A stretch of DNA of 64,000 nucleotides, from positions 17,121-81,120 of IMG/VR virus record IMGVR_UViG_3300036852_000742, one strand, 5' to 3'. Numbering within the stretch: the first letter of the stretch is position 1; each line of letters begins with the position of its first letter. Below the pieces are notes generated by a model, which was given only the letters and a program-made list of their open reading frames with translations, was not told where the DNA came from and made no database searches. Source of the stretch: a virus. Below are positions 1,619 to 60,104 of this stretch, in pieces. The position numbers and the translations under genes are program-made.

Positions 1619-1963
1619 TTAGTGGGGCAGGAGCCCCGGTCGGAACTCCACCTGGCGGGCGGCGTCGGGGCCCAGGCGGGCCAGGACCCACATGAACACG
1701 GCGATCAGCGTTTCGGGGGCGGCGAGCAGCGCCGGCCGGCCGTCGAGGATCACCAGGTAGTGCAGTCCGCCCCGGTCGGGCAGGGTCAGGGTTGGGTACA
1801 TGTGCCCGTGGCTCGCTACTACCGAGGCGTCGTCGAGGTCGACGGGCCAGCGGTACTCCAGCACGCCGAGCCCAGCGGCGATCTGGAGCGCCTGGATCTG
1901 TTGCTGTGGTTTCGGCTTGCTCGTGTCGATTCCTGGGGTTTCAGGGGTTTCAGGGTCTGTCAT
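1619..1963 (-). CDS. Hypothetical protein, first gene of the left-end minus operon
   Basis: This is a 114-residue protein of unknown function. The first ~25 residues are rich in Pro, Thr and Glu and look disordered; the rest looks globular, with a hydrophobic strand/helix pattern. The ATG at 1963 follows GGGAGACCCA; an upstream in-frame ATG at 1990 has no clear ribosome site. It is the first gene after the TTGCCC-17-TAACAT promoter, which lies about 40 nt upstream. Confidence 0.6.
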   Translation of the reverse strand: MTDPETPETPGIDTSKPKPQQQIQALQIAAGLGVLEYRWPVDLDDASVVASHGHMYPTLTLPDRGGLHYLVILDGRPALLAAPETLIAVFMWVLARLGPDAARQVEFRPGLLPH

Positions 1964-2003
1964 TGGGTCTCCCGTTCGGGGGGTGGTCACGTCTCAACGT
2001 CTC

Positions 2004-2032
2004 ATGTTACCCGCGTCATGGATGCGGGGCAA
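2004..2032 (-). promoter_or_regulatory. Phage promoter, TTGCCC-17-TAACAT (minus)
   Basis: On the minus strand ATTGCCCCGC supplies the -35 (2027-2032) and TAACAT the -10 (2004-2009), separated by exactly 17 nt. The same arrangement recurs at seven other places in the window. It faces the 1963 gene. No GCTGGA leader hairpin follows it. Confidence 0.75.
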
Positions 2033-2091
2033 TGCGTGGGGTCTGGCGTGTCGCGCCGTGCGGTCGGCCCGTCAGTGAAACACTGCATGTT

Positions 2092-2796
2092 GTGAGCACC
2101 CCACCCCGGGTCACCGCCGAGCAGGCCGCCGACGCCGTCGCCCGGATCCACGCACGCCGGCACGCCGTGGACGACCCCAACGCGCACCGCCTCGACGACG
2201 ACGCGCTTCAAACCCTGCTCTACCTGCGCCAGCACAGCGACGGGATCCCCGACACTGTCCGCCAGGCCGACATTGCCGATGCCCTGCTGCTTCGGGTGCA
2301 TCTGTGGTGGGAAGCGGAGTCGCTGGAGCTGTGGCTGCTCAAAATGGCTGCGCAGCTCGGGATCCCACACCGCCAGGTCGGCCGGGTGCTCGGCATCCGC
2401 ACCAGGCAGGGTGTGCGTGACCGCCGTGACCGCAAGGAAGCGCTGCTCGGCCCGGCCGGGGTGCCCGATGAGAAGCTGACCCGTGCCGGCCGCCGGCCCG
2501 CGACCGACGCTGACACCTGGCTCTCCCATAACGGCCCGCAGGTCCGGGCGCTCGCGTCGACGCTGCTGGCCAACCAGTCCCGGCTGCCCGACAGTGACTA
2601 CTTCGAGGACCTGGCCGTTGTACTGCCCGGCCCTCACGAATCTGCCCAGGTGGGTGCCAAAGTGATGGCCGTGCTTCGGCTGCTCATCGCCGAGTTGAGG
2701 TCGGAGACCGGATGCCTACCCGGCGACCTTAAGGAAACCCTCGCCTGGGGTACGGAGCTGGTCACCGAACACCGCAAGCTGCTCGGCCCGGCGTAG
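2092..2796 (+). CDS. Helix-turn-helix protein (putative regulator)
   Basis: This 234-residue plus-strand protein is divergent from the left-end operon. Residues ~85-125 form a helix-turn-helix-like stretch (AAQLGIPHRQVGRVLGIRTR) followed by an Arg-rich segment, typical of small actinobacterial DNA-binding proteins. The GTG at 2092 is the earliest start that keeps the conserved-looking region; no strong ribosome site precedes it, so translation may be leaderless or weak. Its lone plus orientation in a minus-strand region suggests a separately controlled regulator. A specific family could not be assigned. Confidence 0.6.
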   Translation: MSTPPRVTAEQAADAVARIHARRHAVDDPNAHRLDDDALQTLLYLRQHSDGIPDTVRQADIADALLLRVHLWWEAESLELWLLKMAAQLGIPHRQVGRVLGIRTRQGVRDRRDRKEALLGPAGVPDEKLTRAGRRPATDADTWLSHNGPQVRALASTLLANQSRLPDSDYFEDLAVVLPGPHESAQVGAKVMAVLRLLIAELRSETGCLPGDLKETLAWGTELVTEHRKLLGPA

Positions 2797-2806
2797 AGCC
2801 TGACCG

Positions 2807-3037
2807 TCAGTGTGGGCGTTTGGCTGCCAGGTCGGTGCGGGCGCCTTGGCCCGCCCGGCCCGCCATGAACGCGTCGACGGTGTCCGGGTACCACCACGGG
2901 ACGCGGTCGGCGAACTCCCCATCGCGCGGGCAGCGGGCGCTGCGCCACGCGTCTCGGGTCATGCCGGCACGGGCAGCAGCCTGTGCTCCGAGCAGGACCA
3001 GGCGCCCGTCGACGGTGATGACCATTCCGGTGACCAT
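2807..3037 (-). CDS. Small putative HTH / excisionase-like protein
   Basis: This is a 72-76 residue protein; the start is ATG 3037 or ATG 3025. It contains GAQAAARAGMTRDAWRSARC followed by WWYPDTVDAFMAGR. This resembles the helix-turn-helix plus wing arrangement of small AlpA/excisionase-type DNA-binding proteins, but similarity is by pattern only. It follows an HNH nuclease gene with a 6-nt gap. With no integrase in view, a role as a recombination directionality factor is speculative. Confidence 0.5.
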   Translation of the reverse strand: MVTGMVITVDGRLVLLGAQAAARAGMTRDAWRSARCPRDGEFADRVPWWYPDTVDAFMAGRAGQGARTDLAAKRPH

Positions 3038-4453: not shown

Positions 4454-4596
4454 GATGCCCCTGCCCAGCTACGGCAAGGGGAACTCGGTGTAGTCATCTG
4501 CGCGACTCCCTTATCGATGGGGTCGCGTGCGAGAAAATCACCAAGTACACTGAAGGTGGACTTGGGTTCCCCCCCACGCATGGCTGCGAGGTCCAT

Positions 4597-4635
4597 GCTC
4601 TCGCCGGATGCGGATCCGGCGAGAGCAGTTTTTTT
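4597..4635 (+). terminator. Strong intrinsic terminator on the plus strand, no plus gene upstream
   Basis: Arms GCTCTCGCCGGAT (4597-4609) and ATCCGGCGAGAGC (4614-4626) pair perfectly over 13 bp with a 4-nt loop and are followed by AG and seven T (4629-4635). The T tract is on the plus strand only, while every gene nearby is on the minus strand. The 195 nt between 4454 and 4648 hold no convincing ORF. Confidence 0.8.
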
Positions 4636-4648
4636 GCCTACGCGCAGG

Positions 4649-4882
4649 CTATGCCGCGTCGACCTGGTTGGTGGTCTGTTCGCCGGGATCGGCGATCCCG
4701 AGCCGGTCCAGCTCGGCAAGGAGTAGGTCCCGCAGGAGCCCCGAGCGGCTGACCCGGCCACCTTCACACACGACGTCCATCCGGCGTAGCTCATCGTCGT
4801 GGAGGGTTAGACCGACCTGATTGGTGCGTCTGGGCATGGTGCTTCGGCGTGGTCCTCTACGCCTGGCCGGGTCTTCATGCAT
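4649..4882 (-). CDS. Ribbon-helix-helix (CopG/Arc-like) DNA-binding protein
   Basis: This is a 77-residue protein. Residues ~22-60 read VGLTLHDDELRRMDVVC followed by SRSGLLRDLLLAELDRL: one beta strand and two helices, as in ribbon-helix-helix repressors. The N-terminus is Arg-rich. The ATG at 4882 follows GGAGGAGGT at ideal spacing. Such proteins bind operators as dimers and often repress their own promoter. It may act as a phage repressor or control nearby early promoters. A degenerate copy of the phage promoter lies about 40 nt upstream. Confidence 0.7.
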   Translation of the reverse strand: MHEDPARRRGPRRSTMPRRTNQVGLTLHDDELRRMDVVCEGGRVSRSGLLRDLLLAELDRLGIADPGEQTTNQVDAA

Positions 4883-4920
4883 GGGCGACCTCCTCCATGA
4901 TCTTCGGTCTTGTCAACGAT

Positions 4921-4949
4921 ATACTACCGTTGGTGGTTGCGGGACCCCC
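4921..4949 (-). promoter_or_regulatory. Degenerate promoter-like site upstream of the RHH gene
   Basis: On the minus strand TAGTAT (4921-4926) is preceded by a CCCGCAAC stretch resembling the CCCCGCAAC of the promoter at 57261. The -35 hexamer at 17-nt spacing is GGGGGT, so the match is partial. It could be a weak promoter for the 4882 gene. Confidence 0.3.
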
Positions 4950-5319
4950 GAACCGGACACGCCGGCCGACACCATCCCAGTTCCCCGGATGTCGCTCTGG
5001 GCGTTCCTGTACCCTGGCCCGTGTTCCCCTGCGCGTCCGGGGGGCCGATGGCAGGGGCCGCTGCGTACAACACGACCCTGCTGGTGGCGGCGCTACCCGG
5101 CTGGCCGTCACCTGACCGGACCCCACGCGCAGAATCCGCCCCACCGCCCAGACGGGCGGTGGGGCGGATCTGGTTTTGCGGCCGGTACAGCAGACAAGGG
5201 CAGGGCCCCGACGGGTCGCCGTGCAGGCACCGTGTGCGTACCCGCTCACCACGGCGGGTGCCGATGTGATGGACGGCCCGAAGGTGCCCACACACGCACA
5301 GCGGGTACGGGCCGGTCAC
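4924..5319 (-). CDS. Small zinc-ribbon-like ORF with doubtful C-terminus
   Basis: The GTG at 5319 overlaps the stop of the tandem-HTH gene (TGTGA), which suggests coupling. The first ~45 residues hold CVCGHLRAVHHIG and RCLHGDPSGPCPC, a plausible Cys/His zinc site seen in small actinophage proteins. After that the frame runs through a long GC hairpin (5138-5166) and composition becomes irregular. The true product may therefore end early, or the end may be frameshifted. Function unknown. Confidence 0.4.
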   Translation of the reverse strand: MTGPYPLCVCGHLRAVHHIGTRRGERVRTRCLHGDPSGPCPCLLYRPQNQIRPTARLGGGADSARGVRSGDGQPGSAATSRVVLYAAAPAIGPPDAQGNTGQGTGTPRATSGELGWCRPACPVRGSRNHQR

Positions 5320-5837
5320 AGCTCGACCAGGTTCAGGTCCAGCCGGGTGGGGACACCGGCGGCGAGCCCCACAGCCCGGCACACCCGTTGCAAGGTGGAC
5401 AGCAGCGGGTTCGCAGCCACCTCCACAAGGGCTATCGCGTTGCCGGTGACCCCGGCGTGGACGGCGACCGCCGGGCGGGACAAACCCCACGCCCGCCGGG
5501 CGGCCTCAAGCTGTGCCACCACCAACCACAAGTGGTGCCCGTCGGTGGGGGTCATCGCCGACAGCATCGCCACCGTCGGGTTCTTGGACAGGTCCGGGAA
5601 CCCGACGGGGGTCAGCGCCAGCCGTCGGCCAACATCAGCGCAGTAGTTCTGCACTGTGCTGGCGAGCCAGTGCATGGTGGTCGACGTTTCGAAGTCGAAC
5701 AGGACGGTCGGGTGCACCCCGCGCCGGGCGGCCATGGCGTCACGGGTCATCAGGTCCCGGCGGGCCGCCACCAGGCAGTCCCGTAGCTGCCGGCGGGCGT
5801 CCGTGTCCGCCGGGTCAATGTCGGGGGTGCGAGTCAC
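5316..5837 (-). CDS. Protein with two HTH-like repeats, putative repressor
   Basis: This 173-residue protein looks like two related helical DNA-binding halves. Residues ~17-80 (QLRDCLVAARRDLMTRDAMA, then GVHPTVLFDFE) and ~105-165 (QLEAARRAWGLSRPAVAVHA, then GVTGNAIALVEVAANP) share the order helix, SR/TRD-x-A-x-A, GV, and a final LxxVxRxxGL. This is like a tandem Cro/CI (XRE) arrangement. It is 3 nt from the next gene. It is the best candidate for a lysis-lysogeny or early-gene repressor in the window, but that is inference. Confidence 0.55.
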   Translation of the reverse strand: MTRTPDIDPADTDARRQLRDCLVAARRDLMTRDAMAARRGVHPTVLFDFETSTTMHWLASTVQNYCADVGRRLALTPVGFPDLSKNPTVAMLSAMTPTDGHHLWLVVAQLEAARRAWGLSRPAVAVHAGVTGNAIALVEVAANPLLSTLQRVCRAVGLAAGVPTRLDLNLVEL

Positions 5838-6274
5838 AGAGCTGCCGCCACGGTGACGTGGGTGATCTGCACGGGGTCCCAGATGACCGCTGCGACCCCA
5901 CCGCCGGGGGTGCCGGTGAGCGTGTAGTTCGCGGCTGTCACCCGCGTAGAGGCGCGCTCCTCCGGCCAGGTAGCGAGGGCGTAGTCGGCGCAGTCCGGGT
6001 GGTACGGGGCCGACCCGGTCACGATCGCCACCTCCGCCGCGACCACCTCCACCGGGCGGGGGACCACGAACACCGCCGGCCCGTCAGCACGGGTCCCGCA
6101 CAGTTGGCACCGCCGCCGGGCCATGCAGTCGTTGACCCTCGACTTGATGATCTCGCCGAACAGGGGAGTCCCGTCGGCGTCGATCACGGTCACGTACGGC
6201 ACGACCAGCCCGTTGTGCGACGGCCGGCCGTCGCACAACGGGGGGATGCCAGGACCGGTCGCTGTCACACTCAC
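5834..6274 (-). CDS. Conserved-looking zinc-binding phage protein
   Basis: This is a 146-residue protein with one putative metal site: RCQLCGTRADGPAVFVVPR followed by YHPDCADYA. It begins with a Gly/Pro-rich part containing HNGLVVPYVTVID. This layout is common in small proteins of actinobacterial phages and mobile elements, with no assigned function. It overlaps the downstream gene by 4 nt. Confidence 0.55.
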   Translation of the reverse strand: MSVTATGPGIPPLCDGRPSHNGLVVPYVTVIDADGTPLFGEIIKSRVNDCMARRRCQLCGTRADGPAVFVVPRPVEVVAAEVAIVTGSAPYHPDCADYALATWPEERASTRVTAANYTLTGTPGGGVAAVIWDPVQITHVTVAAAL

Positions 6275-6287
6275 GTGCCTCTCCTCC

Positions 6288-6800
6288 CTACAACGACCGG
6301 GTGTTGACGGTGGTCAACGCAGTCCGGACCCGGTTGACCGGCCAGTACGTCGCCTGCCCAACCAACCGCCGGCAGTGGGCTTCCGTTGCGGCGTGCTCCG
6401 GGCCGGTCCAGGTCCGGCACGCCCGGCAGGTGCGACGCCCGGCGACAGTCAACGCCCCGACGTCCTGGGCCAGGTCCTCGGTCTCAACCATGAGACGGAG
6501 CTGCTCGTTCACCCACGCCCGGTGGGTCTGCACGTGGGCGTCGGCCAGCGTCCCCCGGTATGAGGACCCAATATCGGGGTCCCGCACAAGGTCCCAATCG
6601 ACCTCGTGCGGGGCGCGCGTCGAGCTGTGCCAGCTCGCGGCTGTGTCGTTGTCGTCGATGTAATCGTGCGGCTCAGCCGCAACGAGACGCACCGCCTCCG
6701 CCTCGTCAGGGTCCCCTGCCGCGACCCACACCACATGCACGGTGGTCACTTCAACCATGACCGGGTACTCGTCCAGCTCGTGTGGCACCTGGGCAGGCAT
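6288..6800 (-). CDS. Hypothetical protein with C-terminal Cys/His motif
   Basis: This is a 170-residue acidic protein. The C-terminal 45 residues contain CRACRTWTGPEHAATEAHC, a candidate zinc site. The N-terminal part has a beta-strand pattern (MVEVTTVHVVWVAAGD) followed by an Asp/Glu-rich helix. The ATG at 6800 lies 7 nt after an AGGTGG ribosome site. No family recognised. Confidence 0.55.
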   Translation of the reverse strand: MPAQVPHELDEYPVMVEVTTVHVVWVAAGDPDEAEAVRLVAAEPHDYIDDNDTAASWHSSTRAPHEVDWDLVRDPDIGSSYRGTLADAHVQTHRAWVNEQLRLMVETEDLAQDVGALTVAGRRTCRACRTWTGPEHAATEAHCRRLVGQATYWPVNRVRTALTTVNTRSL

Positions 6801-6840
6801 GGGCCACCTCCGGTCGGTTGTTGTGGTGTGTTCTCCGGGT

Positions 6841-7590
6841 TCATCCCGCATCGGTCACACCCCCGTTTCCGTACAACTCGTGCAGCCGGGCAAGGTAGCG
6901 ACGCTCGGCCTCGGCCGGTCCCCAGCCCTCAACCTTGACGCCCAGCGGGGGCACGTCCTCGACTGCGGCCCACGGCAACGGCGGCGGCGCCATGAGCGCG
7001 TCGCGCTCGTCATGGAGGATTCGGTTGTCGGCCTCCTTGACTTCGACCGGGCAGGTGTGATCGAGACCGAACCGGTCGCAGATGACAACCATCAACCGGT
7101 CCTCAGCCGCCTGGTACGCCGGCATTGCAGCTTTGAGTGGCCGGATCATGTCGCCCATGTACGCCTCGGTCGCGTCATGCAGGAGCGCCCACAGCGCGTG
7201 CTCAGGTGCGACTGCGTAGCTCATCAGCACGCAGTGCTCGGCCACCGAGTAGAAGCGACTGACGTGCCCGCCGTAGCGGCACAGCAGCGACAAGGCGTGC
7301 GCGATGTCCACGGGATCGACGTCGTTCACGTTTGGCGCGAGCGGATAGAAGGCACGCCCGGTGAAGGTCTGCATCCATGCCTGCATCCCAGTGGGGTCGG
7401 TGGCACGTAGCGCGGCGAGGATGTGCCCGAGGTGTGTGGGGGTGCCCCGAACATGGAAGGTGACCACGCCTGTGCGCGGGTCCTGGTGGGCAACAGCGTG
7501 CGGCTTCAGGCCGGGGCCTGCCCACTCGTCGACCAGCGCCTCGGCGTCGGCGGCGGTCGCGACCAGAAGCCGGTCTGATGACTCAGTCAT
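6841..7590 (-). CDS. HD-domain phosphohydrolase
   Basis: This 249-residue protein has the HD superfamily signature. IAHALSLLCRYGGHVSRFYS gives the first His, VAEHCVL the next, and ALWALLHDATEAYMGDMIRP carries the catalytic HD pair and the final Asp side. The segment TFTGRAFYPLAPNVNDVDP is typical of the phage/YfbR-like subgroup that dephosphorylates dNMPs or related nucleotides. A role in adjusting nucleotide pools during replication is likely. It sits downstream of the RecA-like ATPase operon, overlapping its upstream neighbour by 8 nt. Confidence 0.8.
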   Translation of the reverse strand: MTESSDRLLVATAADAEALVDEWAGPGLKPHAVAHQDPRTGVVTFHVRGTPTHLGHILAALRATDPTGMQAWMQTFTGRAFYPLAPNVNDVDPVDIAHALSLLCRYGGHVSRFYSVAEHCVLMSYAVAPEHALWALLHDATEAYMGDMIRPLKAAMPAYQAAEDRLMVVICDRFGLDHTCPVEVKEADNRILHDERDALMAPPPLPWAAVEDVPPLGVKVEGWGPAEAERRYLARLHELYGNGGVTDAG

Positions 7591-8353
7591 TGGCCGCTGC
7601 CGATTCGACGTGTGGGCATCGGTAGCCCGACATCATCATCGGACACACGTCGGCCACGTACCGGTCGTGCGGCATGTGTTCGGCGGTGACACCCCTGGCC
7701 CGCCAGGCGGCGGCGTCGGAGTGGCCGTACATCTCTACCCAGGCATCGTCTTCCGTTTCGGCCTGGGAGCCTTCGAGCACCCCAAGCGGGCAGCCGCACG
7801 CCTCGCGGAACACCCACTGGGTACGCGTACGGCCACCGGGAACTGCCTCGGCCGCCGCGTGCGCCGCAACCTGCCGGTCGACGATCGCCAACAGGTGCTC
7901 GCCGTACTCGGTGTACACCTGCTTCACCTCATCGCTGTCTTCGGTGATCCGGATTGCGCCGGGGACACCACCGGGCCGCACCTTCAACCCTGGGATCACC
8001 TGCCCGGTTTTCGGGTCGGTGACCGACCCGTCAGCGCGGCGCTGGCCCCGCCCCAGCAACGCCTTCACGAACCTTTCCCGGACCTGGGTCACCTCCTGGA
8101 CCTCGTCCGGGTACTCCACCGCCACCCACCACGCCAACGCCTGTGGGTCGGCAACGAACGCGGCCTCTTTGGATACCGGCAGGACCACTGAGCCCAAGCC
8201 GGGCAGCTTCCACGACGGTGCGGTTCCCTGCTCGACCAGCTCGCGGGTGGCCTCCTCGTCCAGTGCGCGGCGAAACACCCCGGCCTGGCGCAGTGCTGCC
8301 GAAGCCAACGCCTGCAACCGCAGCACCTGCTCGATGCGCTCGCGGCGGTTCAT
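7583..8353 (-). CDS. Hypothetical protein encoded beside a RecA-like ATPase
   Basis: This is a 256-residue protein of unknown function. The first ~45 residues are helical; the middle carries an alternating charged helix (EYPDEVQEVTQVRERFVKAL). The C-terminal ~80 residues contain ACGCPLG and a terminal CPMMMSGYRCPH, which could bind zinc. It overlaps the upstream ATPase gene (ATGA) and the downstream HD gene, so it is translationally coupled to DNA-metabolism genes. It may be a partner of the ATPase, for example a single-strand annealing or nuclease accessory factor, but no motif proves this. Confidence 0.55.
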   Translation of the reverse strand: MNRRERIEQVLRLQALASAALRQAGVFRRALDEEATRELVEQGTAPSWKLPGLGSVVLPVSKEAAFVADPQALAWWVAVEYPDEVQEVTQVRERFVKALLGRGQRRADGSVTDPKTGQVIPGLKVRPGGVPGAIRITEDSDEVKQVYTEYGEHLLAIVDRQVAAHAAAEAVPGGRTRTQWVFREACGCPLGVLEGSQAETEDDAWVEMYGHSDAAAWRARGVTAEHMPHDRYVADVCPMMMSGYRCPHVESAAAND

Positions 8354-9264
8354 GCCGCAGCGTCCGCAACAGCGTGGGACAGCGTCGCTGCCGTGGTGCG
8401 ACGCAGGAACGCGGCCCGCTCGCGCAGCAGGGCCTCAAGGCTGGTCAGTTGCCCATCAGGGCCGTAGACAACAGCGCTGGCCTGGCCGACAGCGTCCAGC
8501 TCCCGGAACTTGGCACCCAACTCCGGCGGGGTCCGGCCGTCTTCGAGGGCCCAATCCCGCACGGTGATCGGGTTGAGTGGTTGGCCGACAGCGTCGCGCT
8601 CCAACCACCGCAGGACGATCTCGCCGACTTCTTCGGTGGGCTTGTCGAAGGTCTTGTCCCGCAGCTCCGGGCAGATGCTCTTGGAGATCCGGGCAACGGC
8701 GTTGTCCATGTCGAGAATGACGTCGAACTCACTCTCGATGTTGTCGCGCTGCTCGGGTTTGAGACCGATCTTCCGTGGGGCCATCTTCCCGGCGGTGTTC
8801 AACTCCACCACGTACTCGGTTTTCACCCTCATAGTGACGATGAGGTGCCCCGGGTACCCCAGGACGGCGTCCATCATCTGCCGTTCGACCGGTCGCATCC
8901 GCTTCCAGCCCTCGAACGAGCTTGCGGCGGCGCCGACCTTGTCGAGCATGCCGTCTTCGCCGCCCCAGAACGGGGACAGCGTGTCGATGATCAACGGGTT
9001 GATGCCTTGTTCTGCGGCGGCGATCGTTGCGCGCGTCAGGTCCTCAGGGTCGAACGTGGCCATTGGTAGATGCCGGAAGGTGAACAGGTCGGCGTACTTC
9101 CGGGCACGGTGCCTGTCGGTGTCGATCAGGCCCGGGTTGTCGCCAAGTGCACGAGCGAGCGTCAGTGCGCTGAATGTCTTACCCGATCCTGATACGCCGG
9201 TCAGCGCCAAGCGGGCCCAGCTACCAGTCTTCACAGCCTGGACGAACTGGAACGGTGTGGTCAT
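8350..9264 (-). CDS. RecA-like phage ATPase (Sak4/AAA_24 type)
   Basis: This is a 304-residue P-loop ATPase. Walker A is GVSGSGKT near residue 25, and a Walker-B-like strand INPLIIDTLSPF lies near 90. The size and the TGVSGSGKTFSALTLA context match the phage Sak4/AAA_24 RecA-like recombinases, which assist single-strand annealing and recombination-dependent replication. It is first in a tight operon with the 256-residue protein and the HD hydrolase. Its start follows a 155-nt upstream region with unusual short repeats. Confidence 0.8.
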   Translation of the reverse strand: MTTPFQFVQAVKTGSWARLALTGVSGSGKTFSALTLARALGDNPGLIDTDRHRARKYADLFTFRHLPMATFDPEDLTRATIAAAEQGINPLIIDTLSPFWGGEDGMLDKVGAAASSFEGWKRMRPVERQMMDAVLGYPGHLIVTMRVKTEYVVELNTAGKMAPRKIGLKPEQRDNIESEFDVILDMDNAVARISKSICPELRDKTFDKPTEEVGEIVLRWLERDAVGQPLNPITVRDWALEDGRTPPELGAKFRELDAVGQASAVVYGPDGQLTSLEALLRERAAFLRRTTAATLSHAVADAAA

Positions 9265-9419
9265 TGGGGTCAGATCTCCTCAGTTGTAGTGGGTGACCGC
9301 CCCTGTTACCGTTGCAGAACGGTGCAGCCCCCCGGTTGTATCCGTCTCCGCGCAGCCCCCAGTCCTGCAACGCTCAGGGTTCCAGCCCCTGTTGCAGCGG
9401 TCCGGGGGTTGCGTGTTTT
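9265..9419 (-). other. 155-nt noncoding stretch with TGCAAC/GTTGCA and GGGGCTG repeats
   Basis: Between the 9420 and 9264 genes I see no convincing ORF. The minus strand has three related blocks that combine GGGGCTG with GCTGCAAC, GTTGCAGG or CTGCAACGG, giving short direct and inverted repeats. This could be a structured 5' UTR, an operator array or an origin-like region. The GAGGAG site for the ATPase gene lies at its left end. Confidence 0.4.
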
Positions 9420-9836
9420 CTACCCCTTGGGCTTGAGTGGCCCACCCCCGCCTGGCGGTAGGGCTGGGGTCAGCGCCTTCCCGTCCCACTGGATCCGCCC
9501 ACCTTGCAGCAGCCAAGGGATGATCGTTGACAGCCGCCAGTAGATGACCCGCTGCCTGCCGATCGCCCTACCGTATGCGTCCGGTTTGGGCAGCTTCGTT
9601 GTCCCTGCCGTTGCCGGCAGGTTCCAGGCGTAGACGGTGTTGGGCTGACGTCCAGTCAGCTCGGCCACTCCGTCCACGCCGATCAGGGTCGTGTCCGAGA
9701 TCAGCGCGCCGTACTTCGCGTCGCCATCCAGGCCAGGGTCGGCGAGGACGGCGCGGATCTTGGCCAGGGCGAGGTCGTTCACCGTGGCCGGGTCGAGGAC
9801 CTCGTCGTCGACCACGTTGGACTCCATCGTGCTCAT
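9420..9836 (-). CDS. MerR/AlpA-like helix-turn-helix protein
   Basis: This is a 138-residue protein. A helix-turn-helix is visible near 55-75 (GVDGVAELTGRQPNTVYAWN), followed by a wing (GRQRVIYWRLSTIIPWLLQ). This is the arrangement of AlpA/MerR-like helix-turn-helix proteins of phages and plasmids. The N-terminus is acidic. The ATG at 9836 is preferred; a GTG at 9848 would sit directly on the AAGGAGG site. It is transcribed from the promoter at 9887-9915 and is probably a regulator. Confidence 0.65.
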   Translation of the reverse strand: MSTMESNVVDDEVLDPATVNDLALAKIRAVLADPGLDGDAKYGALISDTTLIGVDGVAELTGRQPNTVYAWNLPATAGTTKLPKPDAYGRAIGRQRVIYWRLSTIIPWLLQGGRIQWDGKALTPALPPGGGGPLKPKG

Positions 9837-9886
9837 GAGGGGTAGCACCTCCTTCTCTGTGTGTTGGGGCTGGCCAAGCCGTCCCT

Positions 9887-9915
9887 ATTCTATCCGGCCG
9901 TGGAACGCGGGGCAA
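9887..9915 (-). promoter_or_regulatory. Phage promoter, TTGCCC-17-TAGAAT (minus)
   Basis: ATTGCCCCGC on the minus strand (-35 at 9910-9915), 17 nt, then TAGAAT (9887-9892). It lies inside the last codons of the WhiB gene and drives the 9836 gene. The leader has a GGCT/AGCC hairpin rather than the GCTGGA type. Confidence 0.75.
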
Positions 9916-10369
9916 TACGCGCGCGTGATCTCGGGGTCTTCGCTGCTCGCCGGGACTTTTTGCGGGTCTCACTGGCACATTGCTTGCACTGACTCGCGCG
10001 CCCGTCGAGAAGCCCCTTGGCCGGGTAGAACTCGTCGAGGGGCTTCACCGCCCGGCAGCCCCGGCACGCTTTGAAGCCGTCGGGAGCCGCCGGCAACGGA
10101 TCCGGGGCCGGCCCAGCAGCAGCACGTTGCCGCTTGAGTTTGCGGCGCTCACCCTCGGTGAGTCCTCCCCAGATACCAGACGGGGCGTCGATCTTTATGG
10201 CCCAGTCCAGGCACTCTGCCTGGACTTCGCAACCTCGGCAGATCCGTTTCGCGACGTTGGTCTCCCAGGACGTTCCGGCGCCATGCTCAGGGAAGAAGGC
10301 CTCCGCGTCGGTCTCAAGGCATGCCGCGAGGTCTGTCCAGTCCTGCCCGGCGAGTTGGAAGGCTGTCAC
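9890..10369 (-). CDS. WhiB-like iron-sulfur regulator with extra C-terminal zinc module
   Basis: This 159-residue protein has the full Wbl signature: Cys17, then CRGC (Cys44, Cys47), Cys53 in AECLDWA, and the GIWGGLTEGERRKL turn near 65-77. These bind a redox- or NO-sensitive 4Fe-4S cluster and contact the sigma factor. Residues ~100-131 add two CxxC pairs (Cys102/105 and Cys128/131) around FYPAKGLLDGRASQ, like a small zinc finger, and a basic tail follows. Phage Wbl proteins are known to interfere with host WhiB regulation. The extra finger may add DNA binding. It is in an operon with a 119-residue gene from the 10788-10816 promoter. Confidence 0.88.
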   Translation of the reverse strand: MTAFQLAGQDWTDLAACLETDAEAFFPEHGAGTSWETNVAKRICRGCEVQAECLDWAIKIDAPSGIWGGLTEGERRKLKRQRAAAGPAPDPLPAAPDGFKACRGCRAVKPLDEFYPAKGLLDGRASQCKQCASETRKKSRRAAKTPRSRARIAPRSTAG

Positions 10370-10725
10370 GACTGACCGTGCCCATCGTCGTCGTGGGCAG
10401 GGTGGAACCGGCCGTGGTCGGCCACGGGCTGGGTCCAGGTGGTGCCGGTGTCGAGGTCGGAGCCGTGGGCCACCCGGAAGTGGTCCCCGAACTGACCACC
10501 CACCAGCTCATGATCGGCGTTGTAGTGTTCCGGGTATTCGTCCAGGGTGTCGATCCGTTGGTGGTGGCCGTCGGCGGTCAGGAAGACGTCGCCCTCATGC
10601 AGGGTCACCCCCTCCACGGTGTCGCCGGGGTCGGCTGGGCGGCCCACGGGCGACAAGTTGTGCATGGCAGGGGGCGGCGATTCGCCGCGCCCGATGGCGC
10701 CCAGCACATCGTCAATGATGGTCAT
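10366..10725 (-). CDS. Hypothetical protein, first gene of the WhiB operon
   Basis: This is a 119-residue, Asp/His-rich acidic protein of unknown function. Its C-terminal half contains an unusual density of His and Asp (HFRVAHGSD, HPAHDDDGHGQS) that could bind metal. The ATG follows GGGAGGCCCCCACC. It overlaps the whiB-like gene by 4 nt (ATGA), so the two are coupled. Confidence 0.55.
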   Translation of the reverse strand: MTIIDDVLGAIGRGESPPPAMHNLSPVGRPADPGDTVEGVTLHEGDVFLTADGHHQRIDTLDEYPEHYNADHELVGGQFGDHFRVAHGSDLDTGTTWTQPVADHGRFHPAHDDDGHGQS

Positions 10726-10758
10726 GGTGGGGGCCTCCCTGGTCTCCGTCTCGGTGGA

Positions 10759-10816
10759 GGGGCTTGTCCAGCACCCCTTAACTCTCTACATTACCCGCTA
10801 CTGGTGGGCGGGGCAA
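10759..10816 (-). promoter_or_regulatory. Phage promoter TTGCCC-17-TAATGT with GCTGGA leader hairpin (minus)
   Basis: The -35 is 10811-10816 and the -10 TAATGT is 10788-10793, with 17 nt between. The transcript start would fall near 10781, within the end of the HNH gene. The leader begins with GGGG-TGCTGGACAAG-CCCC (10759-10777), then GAGACGGAG and the GGGAGG ribosome site of the 10725 gene. Confidence 0.75.
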
Positions 10817-11275
10817 TACGCCGTCGGTGGTGAGCCACCCCAACCGACCCCGATACAGCACCGGCCAATCCGCCGGCACCTGCCACTCCTCCAACTGCCA
10901 ACCCACCCCCGGGGCTTTGGCCTGCGCCGGATTGGCATGGCACCACGTGTGACACGCCCGGCAGGCGTGCAGCACGTTGACCAACTGGTTGTTCAGCTCT
11001 TTCGCCGCCCCGTGCCGCCCGCCGTCCTTGCGGCCCTTGCGGTGCGCCGGGTCAACCGCCCGCTCCGTGCATCCATCCCGCGCGATCTCACACCGGCCGC
11101 CGGACCGGGCTGCCAGCCCCCGCATCGCCACCGCCGGCAACGCCGCCTGCACCCGATGCCGCTTGACCGTCCGCGCCGCCCGCAACGCCACCGTCCGGAC
11201 CAGCCCGCCCGTACGCGCCAGCGGTTTCCCCGCCGCGAGCGGACCTCCGCGCTTCAACGGCCCGCCCCGCTTCAC
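10778..11275 (-). CDS. HNH endonuclease
   Basis: This is a 165-residue protein with a basic N-terminus (two copies of KRGGPL, then Arg/Lys-rich). The HNH core spans residues ~75-135: CEIARDGC, then VDPAHRKGRKDGG, LNNQLVNVLHACRACHTWCH. These are the CxxxxC/CxxC zinc sites and the D-H...N...H catalytic residues. The GTG at 11275 overlaps the stop of the upstream gene (GTGA). The C-terminal tail continues past the domain to include the next promoter. Confidence 0.8.
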   Translation of the reverse strand: MKRGGPLKRGGPLAAGKPLARTGGLVRTVALRAARTVKRHRVQAALPAVAMRGLAARSGGRCEIARDGCTERAVDPAHRKGRKDGGRHGAAKELNNQLVNVLHACRACHTWCHANPAQAKAPGVGWQLEEWQVPADWPVLYRGRLGWLTTDGVLPRPPVAGNVES

Positions 11276-11601
11276 CGGTGATCGCCGTACATGCGGCCCA
11301 CACCGGGGTACAGGCAGTGGACCGACACCGGTGCTGCTGGCGCCTCGGGGAAACCGAGACGCCGCACGGTCACCATCTCGCCCTCGACGGCCAGCACCAC
11401 GTACTCCCATTGCGGGCCGTCGATGAACCTGACCACGTCCCTCGGGCGCGGGTCGAACGACACGAACACCTTCGCCAAACACTTCGGGCAGTGGTACACC
11501 CAGTCGCAGCTATCAGCACCGTGCCCGCCCATTGACCGTGAGTCGTGCCCGAGGAACTGGCCGTTGCACATGCCGCACATGCGCCAGAGGGCGCTAGCCA
11601 C
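11272..11601 (-). CDS. Zinc-ribbon-like hypothetical protein
   Basis: This is a 109-residue protein. CGMCNGQFLGHD followed by YHCPKCLAK gives two CxxC knuckles ~25 residues apart in the first 45 residues, a probable zinc ribbon. The remainder is a beta-rich domain ending in CLYPGVGRMYGDHR. It is part of a long run of overlapping minus-strand genes (15385 to 10778) from the promoter at 15441-15469. Confidence 0.55.
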   Translation of the reverse strand: MASALWRMCGMCNGQFLGHDSRSMGGHGADSCDWVYHCPKCLAKVFVSFDPRPRDVVRFIDGPQWEYVVLAVEGEMVTVRRLGFPEAPAAPVSVHCLYPGVGRMYGDHR

Positions 11602-21238: not shown

Positions 21239-21465
21239 TGCCCACTACAGAGAATGAGCTGCCCACCGTTGTGGAGATGTTCGTCCGCGCGGACACCCTG
21301 ATGGACACCGCGCACCGGGCGCTTGCCGACGCGGCCGACTGGCTGCGCTCGGACTGGCAGCCCCTCGGGGCTAGCTTGACCGACGCGCAGGCGGCCCGCC
21401 GCAGCAAGATGTTCGCCGAGATCGAGGCTGCGATGGCCGCAATCGAAAGGGCCAGGCGCTCATGA
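21238..21465 (+). CDS. Small helical protein coupled to cas12m
   Basis: This is a 75-residue, mostly helical protein (EMFVRADTLMDTAHRALADA; AAMAAIERARRS). The ATG overlaps the previous stop, and its own stop overlaps the ATG of cas12m (ATGA at 21462-21465). Translation of the effector is therefore probably coupled to it. No family recognised. Confidence 0.5.
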   Translation: MPTTENELPTVVEMFVRADTLMDTAHRALADAADWLRSDWQPLGASLTDAQAARRSKMFAEIEAAMAAIERARRS

Positions 21466-23513
21466 TCACAGTTGTGTATCGGTACGGTGTCGCGTCCTGG
21501 TGGCGGGCACCAGAGTGGATCAGCGAGCAACTTCGGCTAGGGCACAACCTCGACAACGACCTTGTCTCGGTTGCCTACGAGCACGAGGAGGCCAAGGCCG
21601 CGCATTGGACGGCGTTCCCGCAGATCGCCGTTCACGAGGCCGCCCTAGCAACAGCCGAGACTGAGGCTGTGGATCTCTTCGCGCACGTCAAGCAGGTGCG
21701 CGGATGGCTGGGCAAGGCCAAACACGACAAGGACAAGCTCCGGGCCGCCGAGCTACGGGTGGACCTTGCCGCTGCGCAGGCCGATCTGAGGGCCGTCAAG
21801 GCCGGCATCGCCGCTCTGAAGTTGGAGCGGCGGACGTCGATCGCCGACGTGTACGAGCAGTCCACGGAGGCCCTGGCCGCGCTGTCGGACGACCGCAAGG
21901 CAAAGATCGGAGCCTTGTACGGGCGGTACTGCGGCAGCGACGGCGCTGAGGACGGCAGCGAGGATGCGGACGTGCTGCACTGGGCCAGCTTCAACGCCGC
22001 CGTCAAGCACCACGAAACCGCCCGCCAGCGGATGTTGAAGGCGCGTGGTGCCGGGCAGGCCGCCCAGCTCCACTACCACCGGTGGGACGGCACAGGTGCG
22101 GTCACCGTGCAGTTGATGCGCCATGCCTGGTCGCATGGGTGCGCACCGTCGGGTCCTCCGTGGCCGTGCAACCCGGACAAGCCGCGCCCAAAGGCCGTTG
22201 ACTGCCCGAACCGGCAGGCCAAAGACCCGGCCCGGTCACCGCAACTCCTCGCTGCCGGCGGCGGGAAATGGGCCAACGTGTTCCAGCTCAGCCCGTGGTC
22301 GCGGGACCCTGTGGCGTGGAAACGCCAGCCCCGTACCGCGCGGCGCGGCACAGCAACCCTGACCCTCAGCGGCGGCCGGCGCCTTGAGGTCCCCGTCCTC
22401 GTTGACCGGGTCCTGCCCGCAACTGCTGACGTACCGCAGGCGCAGCTCGTGCGGTCTGAGGTAGCCGGCCGGATGGTGTGGCACCTGTGCGTGACGGCGA
22501 TCCTGCCCGACCCGGAGCCGGTGACCACCGGCCCGACCGTGGCGGTACACCTGGGGTGGCGGCGCCGCCCGGACGGGCATGTCCGTGCCGGGGTTGTCCT
22601 ACCCGACGGGCCACTCCCCCCACCACCCGCCGACCTGCTGCGGGCCGCGTCGTCGAGCCCCGGCCGCACCGGCACCGCCCCAACCCATGTCCCGCATCAC
22701 CGCCCGTTCTTGGAACGCCACGACGGCTGGTGGGAAGTTGTCATCCCCGGCCCGATGTGGGACATCGTCGGCCGCCCGTCGGCAATCCGGGCACGCCGGG
22801 ATCTCGCCTTCAACGAGATCCGGGACGTGCTGGTCAGGTGGTTGGATGAGCACCCGGAGCACGCCGACCCGCTGGGGCTCGACCTGGCCCGGGTCAAACT
22901 GTGGCGGGTGCCACGGGCACTGGCCGGCCTGGTACGACGGTGGGCCAGCGACGCGCAACTACCGGCCCTGTTCGCCGCGCAGTTGCTCCCCGACCTGGTC
23001 GCCTGGTGGCGACGGGACCTGCACCTGTACCGGTACGAAGTCGGCGAACGCCACGACCTGGCCGCCCGCCGTGACGACGTGTGGGGACAGATCGGGGCAT
23101 GGCTCGGCCGGTCAGCCGGCCGGGTCCTCGTCGGGGACGAGGACTACCGGGCGCTGCGCCGACGCACCAGCATCGTCGACGACGACATGAGCGCACCGAC
23201 CGAAAGGGTCGATGAGGCGGTCCGTGCCCGCGCGGCCTTCGCCGTACCGGGGCTGCTACGCGCAGCGCTGACCAACGGCGCGAGCCGGCGCGGCGTGACC
23301 GTGGCGAAAGTCCCGGCAGCGTGGGCCACCCGGGAACACCACGAATGCGGCCATGTCGCGACCGGTGACGACGACCAGTACAGGGAGCGGATCGTGGTGA
23401 CCTGCCCTGGTTGCCAGGTTGCCTACGACCAGGACCGCAACGCGGTGCTGGTGATGCTGGAACGCGAGCGGGCCGGTAGCACGGGGGCGAAGGGGGACCG
23501 CTCGCAGCCCTGA
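21462..23513 (+). CDS. cas12m: Cas12m-like type V-M CRISPR effector, RuvC-I Asp replaced by His
   Basis: This is a 683-residue protein resembling characterised Cas12m across its length. The N-terminal helical part (LRLGHNLDNDLVSV; long charged helices 55-150) is followed by YWASF-like HWASFNAAVKHHETA near 173 and RWDGTGAVTVQL near 207. RuvC-I is TTGPTVAVHLGWR (355-367), with His363 where active nucleases have Asp. RuvC-II is RVLVGDEDY (554-562; Asp559 candidate). The zinc knuckle is ECGH (628-631) with CPGC (648-651), and RuvC-III is AYDQDRN (Asp658). Known Cas12m processes its own crRNA, binds DNA and blocks transcription without cutting. A helical insertion and Pro-rich linker make it somewhat longer than the best-known member. 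It ends 128 nt before the array, on the same strand. No cas1/cas2 nearby. Family placement is strong; activity is inferred. Confidence 0.92.
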   Translation: MITVVYRYGVASWWRAPEWISEQLRLGHNLDNDLVSVAYEHEEAKAAHWTAFPQIAVHEAALATAETEAVDLFAHVKQVRGWLGKAKHDKDKLRAAELRVDLAAAQADLRAVKAGIAALKLERRTSIADVYEQSTEALAALSDDRKAKIGALYGRYCGSDGAEDGSEDADVLHWASFNAAVKHHETARQRMLKARGAGQAAQLHYHRWDGTGAVTVQLMRHAWSHGCAPSGPPWPCNPDKPRPKAVDCPNRQAKDPARSPQLLAAGGGKWANVFQLSPWSRDPVAWKRQPRTARRGTATLTLSGGRRLEVPVLVDRVLPATADVPQAQLVRSEVAGRMVWHLCVTAILPDPEPVTTGPTVAVHLGWRRRPDGHVRAGVVLPDGPLPPPPADLLRAASSSPGRTGTAPTHVPHHRPFLERHDGWWEVVIPGPMWDIVGRPSAIRARRDLAFNEIRDVLVRWLDEHPEHADPLGLDLARVKLWRVPRALAGLVRRWASDAQLPALFAAQLLPDLVAWWRRDLHLYRYEVGERHDLAARRDDVWGQIGAWLGRSAGRVLVGDEDYRALRRRTSIVDDDMSAPTERVDEAVRARAAFAVPGLLRAALTNGASRRGVTVAKVPAAWATREHHECGHVATGDDDQYRERIVVTCPGCQVAYDQDRNAVLVMLERERAGSTGAKGDRSQP

Positions 23514-23641
23514 CCGCGCAGGCCAAGGGTTAGTGTCAGCACCGAGAACGGGGCCATAACTCCACAGTGGACAAGTGTCCAGGGGAGCACTCGCGACGAT
23601 CTACGTTTGCGCTGCTCAACCTGCGGCTTTTTCCCCAAGCC
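23514..23641 (+). promoter_or_regulatory. Leader between cas12m and the CRISPR array
   Basis: This is a 128-nt noncoding stretch, less GC-rich than its surroundings. It contains an 11-nt palindrome TCCACAGTGGA (23561-23571) and a run GGCTTTTTCCCC just before the first repeat. No copy of the TTGCCCCGC promoter is present. It may hold a weak array promoter, or the array may be read from the cas12m transcript. Confidence 0.4.
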
Positions 23642-25495
23642 GTGGCAATGGCGATCGCAGCGCCCTTTCTCTGCGAGCCACATGGTGAGCTTGCACGGCC
23701 AGACAATGATCTCGTGGCAATGGCGATCGCAGCGCCCTTTCTCTGCGAGGCGTCAGGACGTCAGCTACTACAGGTCTCCGTCCGAGTGACAACGGCGAGC
23801 GCAGCGCCTCGAACTCTGCGAGCGGCCATGTCTACAGAGGCCGGCGCATCGTCGGTTCGACGCGACAATGGCGAGCGCAGCGCCTCTTTCTCTGCGAGTG
23901 CGCCATGGGTTTACGCGGACTCCTGGCGAGGTACGTGACGACGGCGAGCGCAGCGCCTCAAATCTGCGAGGTCCGGGCTGTCGCGTTCGTCATGGGTGAC
24001 GAACGCGATCGCAGCGATCCTTCTCTGCGAGTACGTCGACGACTCCGGCGCCGAGGCGAGGCGGTTCAAGTGGCAATGGCGATCGCAGCGCCCAAAGACT
24101 GCGAGCTTAGCTCCTCGTCGTAGTACCCCTGCACTGCAAGGTGGCAATGGCGAGCGCAGCGCCTGAAATCTGCGAGCCGGTGATTCGGTGCGGCCGGCGT
24201 TGGGTGGTACCTGCATGTGACCATGGCGAGCGCAGCGCCTCAACTCTGCGAGAAGGGGCAGGGCCTGTCGCGCGTACCAGGCCCGCGCGGTGACCATGGC
24301 GAGCGCAGCGCCTCAACTCTGCGAGTCCCGCCAGCTTGACTACCCGCTAGCCTGGATCAGGCCGGTGACCATGGCGAGCGCAGCGCCTCAACTCTGCGAG
24401 TCTCCACCGGCGTCATGCTCACTTCGCGCAACCCCAAGGTGACCATGGCGAGCGCAGCGCCTCAACTCTGCGAGGAGGGTCTCCCGTAGCAGCTCGGTGC
24501 AGCGTGACAACGGCGAGCGCAGCGCCTGAAATCTGCGACGCTATATCGTGAAGCAGGCGCACCATTATGAGCGTGGTGACAATGGCGAGCGCAGCGCCCC
24601 TCTTTCTGCGAGTACCTGAACCACGCCCGAGCGGCTTCCGTTGCCTGCGGCGTAGCAACGGCGAGCGCAGCGCCCTTTTTCTGCGAGTGCGTGTGCGGCG
24701 AGGCCGCAGTACTGACGCGACAGTGGCGAGCGCAGCGCCTAAAACCTGCGACTTGGTATCCCGATCCAGGCGGCCCGTGAGACCGCGTAAGTGACAACGG
24801 CGACCGCAGCGCCCTTTCTCTGCGAGGCTGCAATGAGTAACTACATGGATGTCCGGCGCAGGTAACGATGGTGATCGCAGCACCTCAAAACTGCGAGTGG
24901 ATGGTCCCGATGTTGGTCGTGATCGAGGGCGCCGCGCGTGACAATGGTGATCGCAGCACCTCAAACTGCGAGGTCGTCAGCCGCACGGACGCGGCAAGGT
25001 TTGAGACCATGAGCGACAATGGCGATCACAGCGCCTCAAAACCTGCGAGCTGGATGCGGCGGCGGAGCATCTCCGCGTCGCGCGTACCGGCGACAATGGC
25101 GATCACAGCGACCACAAACTGTGAGATCCTCTCAACCGGTGCTAGCTTGCGCGCGACCGGTTGCGTGACGATGGTGATCGCAGCGCCCAAAACCTGCGAG
25201 CACGGCAGCGCCTCCAGCCCGACCGGTTGCGCGACGACGGTGAGCGCAGCACCCAAGAAGACACTGCGAGTTCGAGTACGTGTCGGCTCCTCCAAGGGCG
25301 ACATGGGCGACGATGGTGAGCGCAGCGCCCAAAGTCTGCGAGTGATGGGGTGGCGCGAGCAGTACGACCGCATGCAGGTGGCAATGGCAATGGCGATCGC
25401 AGCGCCCAAAACCTGCGAGTCCATAGCTTGGATGGGTTACCACTCCGCGCTACGGCGCGACAACGGTGATCGCAGCGCCCCAACGATCCTGCGAG
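23642..25495 (+). CRISPR. Degenerate CRISPR array: 26 repeats, 25 spacers
   Basis: I count 26 repeat units, mostly 36 nt (range 35-42), starting 23642, 23714, 23786, 23862, 23935, 23996, 24070, 24141, 24217, 24290, 24365, 24439, 24504, 24576, 24652, 24717, 24791, 24862, 24938, 25013, 25090, 25165, 25231, 25307, 25378, 25457. Units 1-2 are identical, as are units 9-12; the others drift. The core is GCGA(G/T)CGCAGC, a 9-14 nt loop, then CTGCGAG, so CGCAG pairs with CTGCG. Two units end CTGCGAC. Spacers are 25-40 nt (36,36,39,36,25,38,35,40,37,39,38,29,36,39,29,38,35,40,40,40,39,30,36,35,37) and all differ. The hairpin abuts the 3' spacer, as in type V crRNAs read on the plus strand. Unit 25 carries a 6-nt duplication; unit 23 has a 14-nt loop. 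Confidence 0.9.
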
Positions 25496-26162: not shown

Positions 26163-26229
26163 GCCTGCCTCCACGCGTAGCCTTGGGCCGGTGACAGACA
26201 AAGCCAACGGGTTGATCTGTTGACATCCT

Positions 26230-26249
26230 CCCCCGTCTAAGGGCGGGGG
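26230..26249 (-). other. Right-end hairpin of the IS605-type element / omega-RNA scaffold end
   Basis: Stem CCCCCG (26230-26235) with CGGGGG (26244-26249), 8-nt loop. In IS605 elements the RNA from the 3' end of tnpB through the right end acts as the guide RNA of TnpB. The guide would be the sequence just outside the element, toward 26200. Confidence 0.6.
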
Positions 26250-27460
26250 ATTCCAACTGCAAGCGGTTGAGGTTCACGGGCGCTCAACGCCTTGCGGCGT
26301 GTCGCCCCTCCGGCACGAGACGGTTGTCTCGGGACTGGTGTGCAGTCCTGTCCTGCCGCGATGTTGATGCTGGCGTTGTGGTCGGCGTTGCAGGTAAAGC
26401 CGCAGGCGGTGCAACAGAATCGGGCTTGGCTCTCGCGCGAGTTCTTGTCGATCCATCCGCAGGCACTGCAACGCAGGCTGGTGTAGGCGGCTTTGACTTT
26501 CTGGACGCGGCCGGGGGCTTTGTCTTCGGTGCGCCGGGCGAGCATGCCCCACCCGGACGCGAGGATGGCCCGGTTCAGGCCGGCCTTCTGCCGGACGTTG
26601 CGGCCGGGGCTATCGACGGTGCCCCTTGCGGTCGCGGTCATGTTCTTGATCCGCAGGTCTTCGAGGCGGATCACGTCGAACCGGCGGGCGAATGCGGTGC
26701 TGGTTTTCTCGGTCCAGTCCTTGCGGATGTCCGCCTCGCGTGCCTTGAGCCGTGCGATCCGCTGACGCTCAACCTGCACTACCTCGGACCGCTTCGGTGC
26801 CCGAGCCTTGCGCCGTTCTGCCTTACGCAGTCGGGCCCGCTCTTTGCTGGACAGGCGAGGGCAGGCCAGTGTTTCGCCCGTGCTCAACGCGGCCGTGATG
26901 GTCACGCCCCGGTCGACGCCGACAACCGTTCCGTTTCCGGGAGACTCGATCGGGTCGGGGATGACCGCGAACGCGACGTGCCAACGCCCGGAGCGGTCAC
27001 AGGTGATGCGGTACGACTTGCATGCCGCAACGGATCGCGACCAGCGGAACCGAACCCAGCCAACCTTGGGAACCTTGACCTGACCCCAGTGTCGGTTCAG
27101 CCGTTGGACATGGAGTCCGAAGGTGAAGTCGGTGATCCGGAAGCCTTCGTGGACGTACTTGCTGCGCCACGTCGGCCGCATGTGGGCGCCCGTAAAGAAG
27201 TTGGCCATGGCTTGGGCGTAGTCGCGCAGAGCCTGTTGCTGGACGTTAACCGAACCGGCGGCGAGCCACGGCTCGGCGGTGCGCGCTTCGGTGAGTTGGC
27301 GGCACTGGACGACGAAGCTGGGGGCCGACCGACGGGCACGCGCGGGCGTCCACCACGCTCCCTGTTCAACGGCCAGATTCCAGACGTACCGGGCGTCACC
27401 GCAGTGCGACAGAAGGGTCGCCTCCTGCGCCACGGTCGGGTACAGCCGATACCTGGACAT
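26237..27460 (-). CDS. tnpB: TnpB RNA-guided nuclease (IS200/IS605 family OrfB)
   Basis: This is a 407-residue protein, normal length for TnpB. RuvC-I is TVVGVDRGVT with Asp183, RuvC-II is DVIRLEDLRIKN with Glu267, and the zinc finger is CSACG (Cys331/334) with CCTACG (Cys350/353). RuvC-III is CNADHNASINI with Asp360. All three catalytic acids are intact, unlike the Cas12m-like protein nearby. The start is taken as MSRYRLYP at 27460; the open frame extends upstream without a sensible start. TnpB cuts DNA guided by omega-RNA and helps the element persist at its site. The gene interrupts the lysis region. Confidence 0.92.
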   Translation of the reverse strand: MSRYRLYPTVAQEATLLSHCGDARYVWNLAVEQGAWWTPARARRSAPSFVVQCRQLTEARTAEPWLAAGSVNVQQQALRDYAQAMANFFTGAHMRPTWRSKYVHEGFRITDFTFGLHVQRLNRHWGQVKVPKVGWVRFRWSRSVAACKSYRITCDRSGRWHVAFAVIPDPIESPGNGTVVGVDRGVTITAALSTGETLACPRLSSKERARLRKAERRKARAPKRSEVVQVERQRIARLKAREADIRKDWTEKTSTAFARRFDVIRLEDLRIKNMTATARGTVDSPGRNVRQKAGLNRAILASGWGMLARRTEDKAPGRVQKVKAAYTSLRCSACGWIDKNSRESQARFCCTACGFTCNADHNASINIAAGQDCTPVPRQPSRAGGATRRKALSAREPQPLAVGIPRP

Positions 27461-27488
27461 GGAACCATAATAGCACCATGATGGTCCC

Positions 27489-27638
27489 ATGAAGCATGTG
27501 AACCTGCGCCTACCCGACGACGTCCACGAGGCAGTCAAAGCAGCCGCCGAACACGACCGACGTTCCCTCAACAGCATGCTGATCGTCCTCATCGAGCGAG
27601 CCCTCACGGCAGACCGTCCAACCTCACCCCCGCCCTGA
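27489..27638 (+). CDS. Ribbon-helix-helix (Arc/HicB-like) protein of the tnpB element
   Basis: This is a 49-residue protein: MKHVNLRLPDDVHEAVKAAA, then EHDRRSLNSMLIVLIERALT. One strand plus two helices with RSLNSM is the classic Arc/CopG ribbon-helix-helix pattern. It is divergent from tnpB with only 28 nt between starts, so it may repress the shared promoter region. A TTCATGGGACCATC-type stretch between them is a possible operator. It probably travels with the element. Confidence 0.75.
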   Translation: MKHVNLRLPDDVHEAVKAAAEHDRRSLNSMLIVLIERALTADRPTSPPP

Positions 27639-27722
27639 AGGACGAGGCACCCGCCGGACAAGGGTCGGTGGCTGCCGGATCCGCACCGCCGCCCCGGTGA
27701 ATCGACGGCCCGGGTGCGCGGT

Positions 27723-28160
27723 TCAGAGTTTGAGGATGATCGCAAGGATCGAGCCTGCGAGGATCGCCGCCCCGCACAGGTACGCCCAGCCCAGATTCAG
27801 CCCGGTCGAGCGGCCTTCGGTCTTGTCGATCCTGGACGCCAACTCACGTATCCGCTCACCGGTACCGGCGCGCTGTGCCTCAAACTCGACGCGCGACACG
27901 AACGTGGCCGTCTGATCAGACAGGGTCTGACGAAACTCGTTGACCCCTTCGAAGCGTTTCTCCGTGGCCACTTCAGCCTTCGTGACGGCTTTCTCCGCCG
28001 CGATCAGCGCCGCCCCGATGGCCTTCTCGGCCGCGAGGAGGGCCGCGTCGATTGCTTTTGTCTGGGCGTCGAAACGCTGCTGGTAGCGCAGATCAGTTTC
28101 GACGAACAAGGCCCGGACATGCTCCAGGAGTGTGATACGTGAAGACCTCACACCCCACAC
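27723..28160 (-). CDS. Coiled-coil protein with C-terminal membrane anchor (second holin candidate)
   Basis: This is a 145-residue protein. A long helical region with repeated LLAAEKAIGAALIAAEKAVT units (residues ~35-60) and charged heptads is followed by one C-terminal hydrophobic segment (WAYLCGAAILAGSILAIIL). This is the shape of the small tail-anchored proteins next to actinophage endolysins, thought to act as holins or membrane adaptors. GTG 28160 follows GGGG; an internal GTG at 28148 is possible. It lies 11 nt after the amidase gene. Confidence 0.65.
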   Translation of the reverse strand: MWGVRSSRITLLEHVRALFVETDLRYQQRFDAQTKAIDAALLAAEKAIGAALIAAEKAVTKAEVATEKRFEGVNEFRQTLSDQTATFVSRVEFEAQRAGTGERIRELASRIDKTEGRSTGLNLGWAYLCGAAILAGSILAIILKL

Positions 28161-60100: not shown

Positions 60101-60104
60101 CCTT

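Follow-up and report, generated by a model that had tools for sequence, protein, structure and literature searches.

Type V-M CRISPR systems, whose effector is Cas12m, have been found on plasmids and in some prophages, and the two stems of their repeats have already been published. CRISPR repeats are normally alike, each being copied from its neighbour, and one ordinary array therefore hides which of its bases matter. The Cas12m proteins characterised so far are DNA binders that do not cut and that protect via blocking; V-U/V-M systems are typically devoid of adaptation genes (PMC11013384). V-M systems use no tracrRNA, and the RuvC triads described for Cas12m are D-E-D, H-D-D and N-D-D. In the solved structure of Cas12m2 (PDB 8HHL; PMC10442227), an effector which processes its own pre-crRNA with a cut upstream of the scaffold, the protein holds a pseudoknot and a stem through their sugar-phosphate backbone. 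The flipped-out A-24 is followed by G-23 opposite A-2, six pairs join C-22 to C-17 with G-8 to G-3, and His269 and Arg270 contact C-1 of the crRNA. That repeats from different arrays differ by compensatory changes which preserve their pairing was described in 2007 (PMC1896005). The pseudoknot itself is already known; what appears to be new is the strong divergence of repeats inside single phage-borne V-M arrays, in which the fold alone is kept, and the literature, which was covered in part, yielded no description of single V-M arrays whose repeats diverge strongly.

The window analysed here, a stretch of 64,000 nucleotides, is part of an IMG/VR virus record of 81,120 bases (IMGVR_UViG_3300036852_000742), and it derives from a tailed phage, since the contig carries genes for a terminase large subunit, portal, capsid, tape measure protein and endolysin. 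For the portal protein, the nearest counterparts are those of a Brevibacterium phage and similar phages (approximately 43% identity). The cas12m product (Table 1) matches the solved Cas12m2 (PDB 8hhl, E=3.7e-73), a second Cas12m structure (GoCas12m, E=1.2e-70) and, across residues 3-670, the PADLOC Cas12u1 profile (E=6.8e-103). Judged by these matches and by the adjacent array with its stem-plus-pseudoknot repeat, the locus is a phage-borne type V-M (Cas12m) system. Its array lies directly downstream of cas12m on the same strand, a layout shared, together with the effector family and the two stems, with Gordonia otitidis Cas12m (PDB 8PM4; PMC11013384), which differs in having six identical repeats and an H-D-D triad. 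A weak terminator-like site in the putative leader (23611-23627) was within chance in a scan. The ORFs upstream of cas12m (75 aa and 431 aa) had no homologue beside the other cas12m genes collected. Of the adaptation genes that a canonical array would have in cis, Cas1 was searched for and not found on the contig, an 81-kb record that may be a fragment.

Table 1. Features of the phage-borne V-M locus (positions within the window)
Feature	Position	Strand	Basis or remark
cas12m, 683 aa, type V-M effector	21462..23513	+	PDB 8hhl, PADLOC Cas12u1, alignments
Putative leader, cas12m-array interval	23514..23641	+	Position only
CRISPR array, 26 units	23642..25495	+	Spacing 61-77 nt
Units 18 and 19	24862..24972	+	P1 GGTG/CACC (both sides changed)
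Unit 20	25013..25049	+	PK CACAG/CTGCG, one A·C mismatch; P1 GGCG/CGCC intact
Unit 21	25090..25125	+	PK CACAG/CTGTG restored; P1 has G·A or bulged A
Unit 23	25231-25270	+	P1 GGTG/CACC

For comparison, V-M loci (numbered with the prefix L below) were collected from IMG/VR, GTDB genomes, plasmids and phages; most of them carry an array, and Cas12m was present in 2 of 395 genomes of the Gordonia class. With Cas12m2 (PMC10442227) the window system shares the effector family, a His at RuvC-I, a 36-nt repeat and a pseudoknot-plus-stem scaffold in the same register, whereas both helices are of other sequence, the PK helix has five pairs rather than six, the RuvC-II acid is Gly, His269 is replaced by Asp, the repeat ends in G, the system resides on a phage and the repeats diverge within the array. 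Alignment places the RuvC residues at H363, G558 and D656, and the resulting H-G-D site is none of the described triads, Gly558 standing in place of the RuvC-II acid (Mm Asp485). This acid is also absent in Cas12m relatives from other phages (L016 and L028), such that H-G-D marks a variant; the Cas12m family is not defined by its active site. With the acid lost, the window protein is expected to bind and block without cutting. Its Asp315 occupies the position of Mm His269, and G is the last repeat base in 24 of the 26 units; the viral contig L015 has Asp at the same position with repeats ending in G (6/6), while nearly all other systems combine His with a terminal C, the exceptions being L066 (His with G) and L063 (Ser with C). 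It may be hypothesised that effector and repeat co-evolve where the protein meets base -1, Asp going with G and His with C, a proposal kept at that level because two Asp systems make a small sample and could be related.

The initial annotation had presented the repeat as a hairpin under selection, in which most units pair CGCAG with CTGCG across 9-14 nt. Direct reading bears out both the strands and the spacing, as CGCAG/CTGCG is present in all 24 units other than units 20 and 21, and the pairing is indeed selected (see below); the hairpin, however, constitutes only half of a two-helix pseudoknot. What had been read as a free loop opens with CGCC, whose four bases pair with the GGCG that shortly precedes CGCAG, and each unit forms an H-type pseudoknot composed of P1 (GGCG/CGCC) and PK (CGCAG/CTGCG). 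The P1 strands flank CGCAG, GGCG one linker dinucleotide before it and CGCC directly after it. The units match the Cas12m2 register: A-24 is invariant, G or U predominates at position -23, and the pair C-22/G-3 is present. Flanking bases had been said to drift freely, which is true of the 3' loop, the most variable part (19 different strings of 5-10 nt among the 26 units), but not of C-32 and A-24, which never vary, while G-36 and A-30 are near-invariant (25 of 26 units each). Single-sequence MFE folding was discarded as structural evidence (z from -1.2 to +0.4), being uninformative because it shows one of the two overlapping helices.

The mismatch in unit 20 (GCGACAAT GGCG AT CACAG CGCC TCAAAAC CTGCG AG) was confirmed by direct reading, and the restoration claimed for unit 21 (GCGACAAT GGCG AT CACAG CGAC CACAAA CTGTG AG) holds for PK, but the same unit places G opposite A in P1 unless the A is bulged (CG-A-CC). 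By itself, this change would not be sufficient evidence of selection on structure. As a single event (Fisher p=0.077) it might be a coincidence, in which neutral distal decay produced two independent transitions that restored the pair by luck: repeats at the distal end often decay, the stem variants cluster there (8 of 9 distal versus 1 of 17 proximal units; p=5e-5), and unit 6 has lost P1 pairs through two mismatches, which suggests that some units may be dead. Such luck is nevertheless rather improbable, as the second helix covaries independently of PK, C-26/G-16 changing to U/A in units 18, 19 and 23 (p=0.0077), and as the loop beside the stems takes 19 forms against six in the stems. U·G intermediates occupy the same P1 positions (-26/-16) in units 22, 24 and 26. 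Across both helices 230 of 234 stem cells are paired and four mispaired, compared with a mean of 226.8 when 3' strands are shuffled among units (P=0.0006; P=0.0001 if only Watson-Crick pairs are counted), although these within-array p values are indicative only, the units being related by descent rather than independent.

Further evidence against coincidence is that covariation of these helices recurs between systems and inside other arrays. The covariation analysis of related arrays, which the initial annotation had proposed, returned 90/90, 65/65 and 161/168 paired cells in three tests. In the first (MAFFT-based), ten systems with 28-nt cores were aligned without gaps: all 90 cells of the two-helix structure were paired, a percentage that is partly by construction as the cores were located via the same layout, both-sided changes occurred at eight of the nine pairs, and the covariation score was 0.921 versus 0.203 for shuffled and at most 0.237 for slid partners. 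The other two tests are freer. Repeats of 13 systems anchored only at their 3' ends had all 65 PK cells paired (shuffle maximum 49), and within the L044 array, where the PK strands occur in 23 combinations, 161 of 168 PK cells were paired (shuffle maximum 146). Covariation tests of single PK pairs in L021 and L024 were each non-significant alone. Selection on pairing, as had been claimed from the window array, is therefore secure on account of covariation across and inside related arrays, and it rests chiefly on the cross-array evidence, which is far stronger than the within-array values. In contrast to the compensatory changes reported between arrays (PMC1896005), those described here also distinguish units of a single array, and they affect a pseudoknot.

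Because an RNA helix always corresponds to an inverted repeat at the DNA level, the repeats could be conserved as DNA, i.e. as protein-binding or recombination sites. We find this barely credible, given that two overlapping helices are incompatible in one simple DNA cruciform, that wobble pairs are present (units 22, 24 and 26; L021; L024), and that the repeats agree with the solved Cas12m2 crRNA (PMC10442227) in register, in their invariant A-24 and at positions -23/-2. As regards the function of the structure, the initial annotation had expected it to be kept for crRNA processing as well as effector recognition. Selection on processing rather than binding would be in keeping with a Cas12m that processes its own pre-crRNA, yet it is quite unlikely, as in Cas12m2 the cut falls 5' of the scaffold and it is the pseudoknot that the protein binds (PMC10442227). 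Backbone contacts and an upstream cut site together make effector binding the likelier selected role, and where contacts are to the backbone, helix sequence may change while pairing may not.

We thus have high confidence in an explanation in which a phage-borne V-M system keeps the shape of its scaffold while the sequence drifts and its effector is a binder or blocker. The array would be transcribed from its cas12m end, every unit yielding a crRNA with a 5' scaffold followed by the guide, and P1 would stack on PK in the H-type pseudoknot. Cas12m would grip this pseudoknot mainly by its backbone, leaving helix sequence free provided that pairing is kept. The pre-crRNA would probably be cut by Cas12m 5' of the scaffold, whereupon Cas12m would bind target DNA and block transcription or replication without cutting. 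Units would drift like separate guide-RNA genes, accumulating compensatory changes mostly at the distal end, and this drift might be enabled by the lack of a Cas1 recopying a template repeat, a tentative link given that identical-repeat arrays also exist.

The window array contains 22 distinct repeats among its 26 units and so departs from the near-identical repeats of a canonical array. Neighbouring repeats are more alike than in random order (P=0.0003), which makes past templated copying possible and counts against the above explanation. From this likeness and the polarity of the stem variants, we infer that the array once grew at its cas12m end and then drifted. Identical repeats (one distinct core each) characterise L007, L015, L042, L050, L053 and L064. 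G-ending repeats were encountered only in the window, L015 (both with Asp) and L066. Other diverged arrays are those of L021 (9 distinct repeats of 11), L005 (12 of 22), L024/L019 (6 of 9) and L044/L046, in which all 28 units are distinct. The V-M-like locus of phage Rctr197k (KX853510), likewise a Cas12m relative carried by a phage together with a CRISPR array, shares this divergence (12 distinct cores in 22 units), but differs from the window in its D-E-D-type RuvC motifs and in its constant PK strands, its loop and P1 being the parts that vary. In L019/L024, CGTAGA/TCTACG and CGTGGA/TCCACG are bridged by the G·U form CGTGGA/TCTACG, a path of the same kind as that of units 20 and 21, albeit via a wobble pair. 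The Cas12m locus and array are identical in L019/L033 (6.6-Mb actinomycete genome G187) and L024 (IMG/VR record 2889752395); as a chromosome-sized bacterial contig and a viral record share it, this locus is probably a prophage. Its Cas12m has Arg at RuvC-I and seems to have lost the C-terminal zinc part.

The L044 array (1696-3022), which also occurs in L045 and in L046, a 180-kb phage contig, alternates 28-nt scaffolds with guides of approximately 19 nt at a spacing of 45-60 nt. Some of its guides are alike in pairs, with mostly silent-type changes (TCAGGCTTCTCTCCTACACC / CCAGACTTCTCTCCTACGCC; CGCCACCATGAGCAT / CGCCATCATGAACAT), as if they were aimed at related genes. L022 has nine or ten diverse units with 53 of 54 cells paired; on this 39-kb phage contig the units lie at 4502-11458 in small clusters and singly, all repeats being different, and they flank cas12m on both sides, with others further off between phage genes. 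No convincing solo V-M unit was found elsewhere on the window phage contig. A bolder view, which we offer as conceivable but short of probable, is that phage V-M units are families of separate guide-RNA genes that duplicate and mutate in scaffold and guide, held only by the pseudoknot gripped by Cas12m, with 28 compact units (28-nt scaffold plus ~19-nt guide) or scattered solo units as extremes and with effector-repeat co-evolution at -1.

Diverse phage arrays represent natural mutagenesis experiments, and they indicate that Cas12m reads shape, not sequence, at nearly every scaffold pair. This would guide the design of multiplex arrays with non-recombining repeats, and it raises the question of how spacers are gained without an adaptation module. 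Additionally, array finders that require near-identical repeats would probably miss L044-like arrays and scattered units such as those of L022.

As in a canonical array, the 25 complete window spacers (24-40 nt) are all different. Searches with blastn against phages and plasmids yielded no target (best E=0.04), and two exact seed scans of IMG/VR were empty. Against their own contig, the only match was that of the PAM-distal part of spacer 9 (19/20) at 48018-48037, inside a head morphogenesis gene; the seed is mismatched and the match is probably due to chance. Self-targeting in the L046, L022 and L021 phages was likewise limited to short, non-significant matches. Spacers 21 and 22 (25126-25230) end in nearly identical 13 bases (GCGCGACCGGTTG / GCCCGACCGGTTG), which, together with the shortness of spacer 22, suggests recombination between units. 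A TnpB-like gene with a typical IS200/IS605 zinc ribbon (26237-27745, - strand) adjoins the CRISPR array, and the GGGGGAGGATGTCAAC-type end at approximately 26219-26235 looks like its right end and guide-RNA site. Furthermore, the phage carries genes for an aldehyde dehydrogenase (Pfam Aldedh, E=6e-158) and a PAPS-reductase-like/DUF3440 protein at 58634-60160 and 61252-62757, respectively, both on the - strand.
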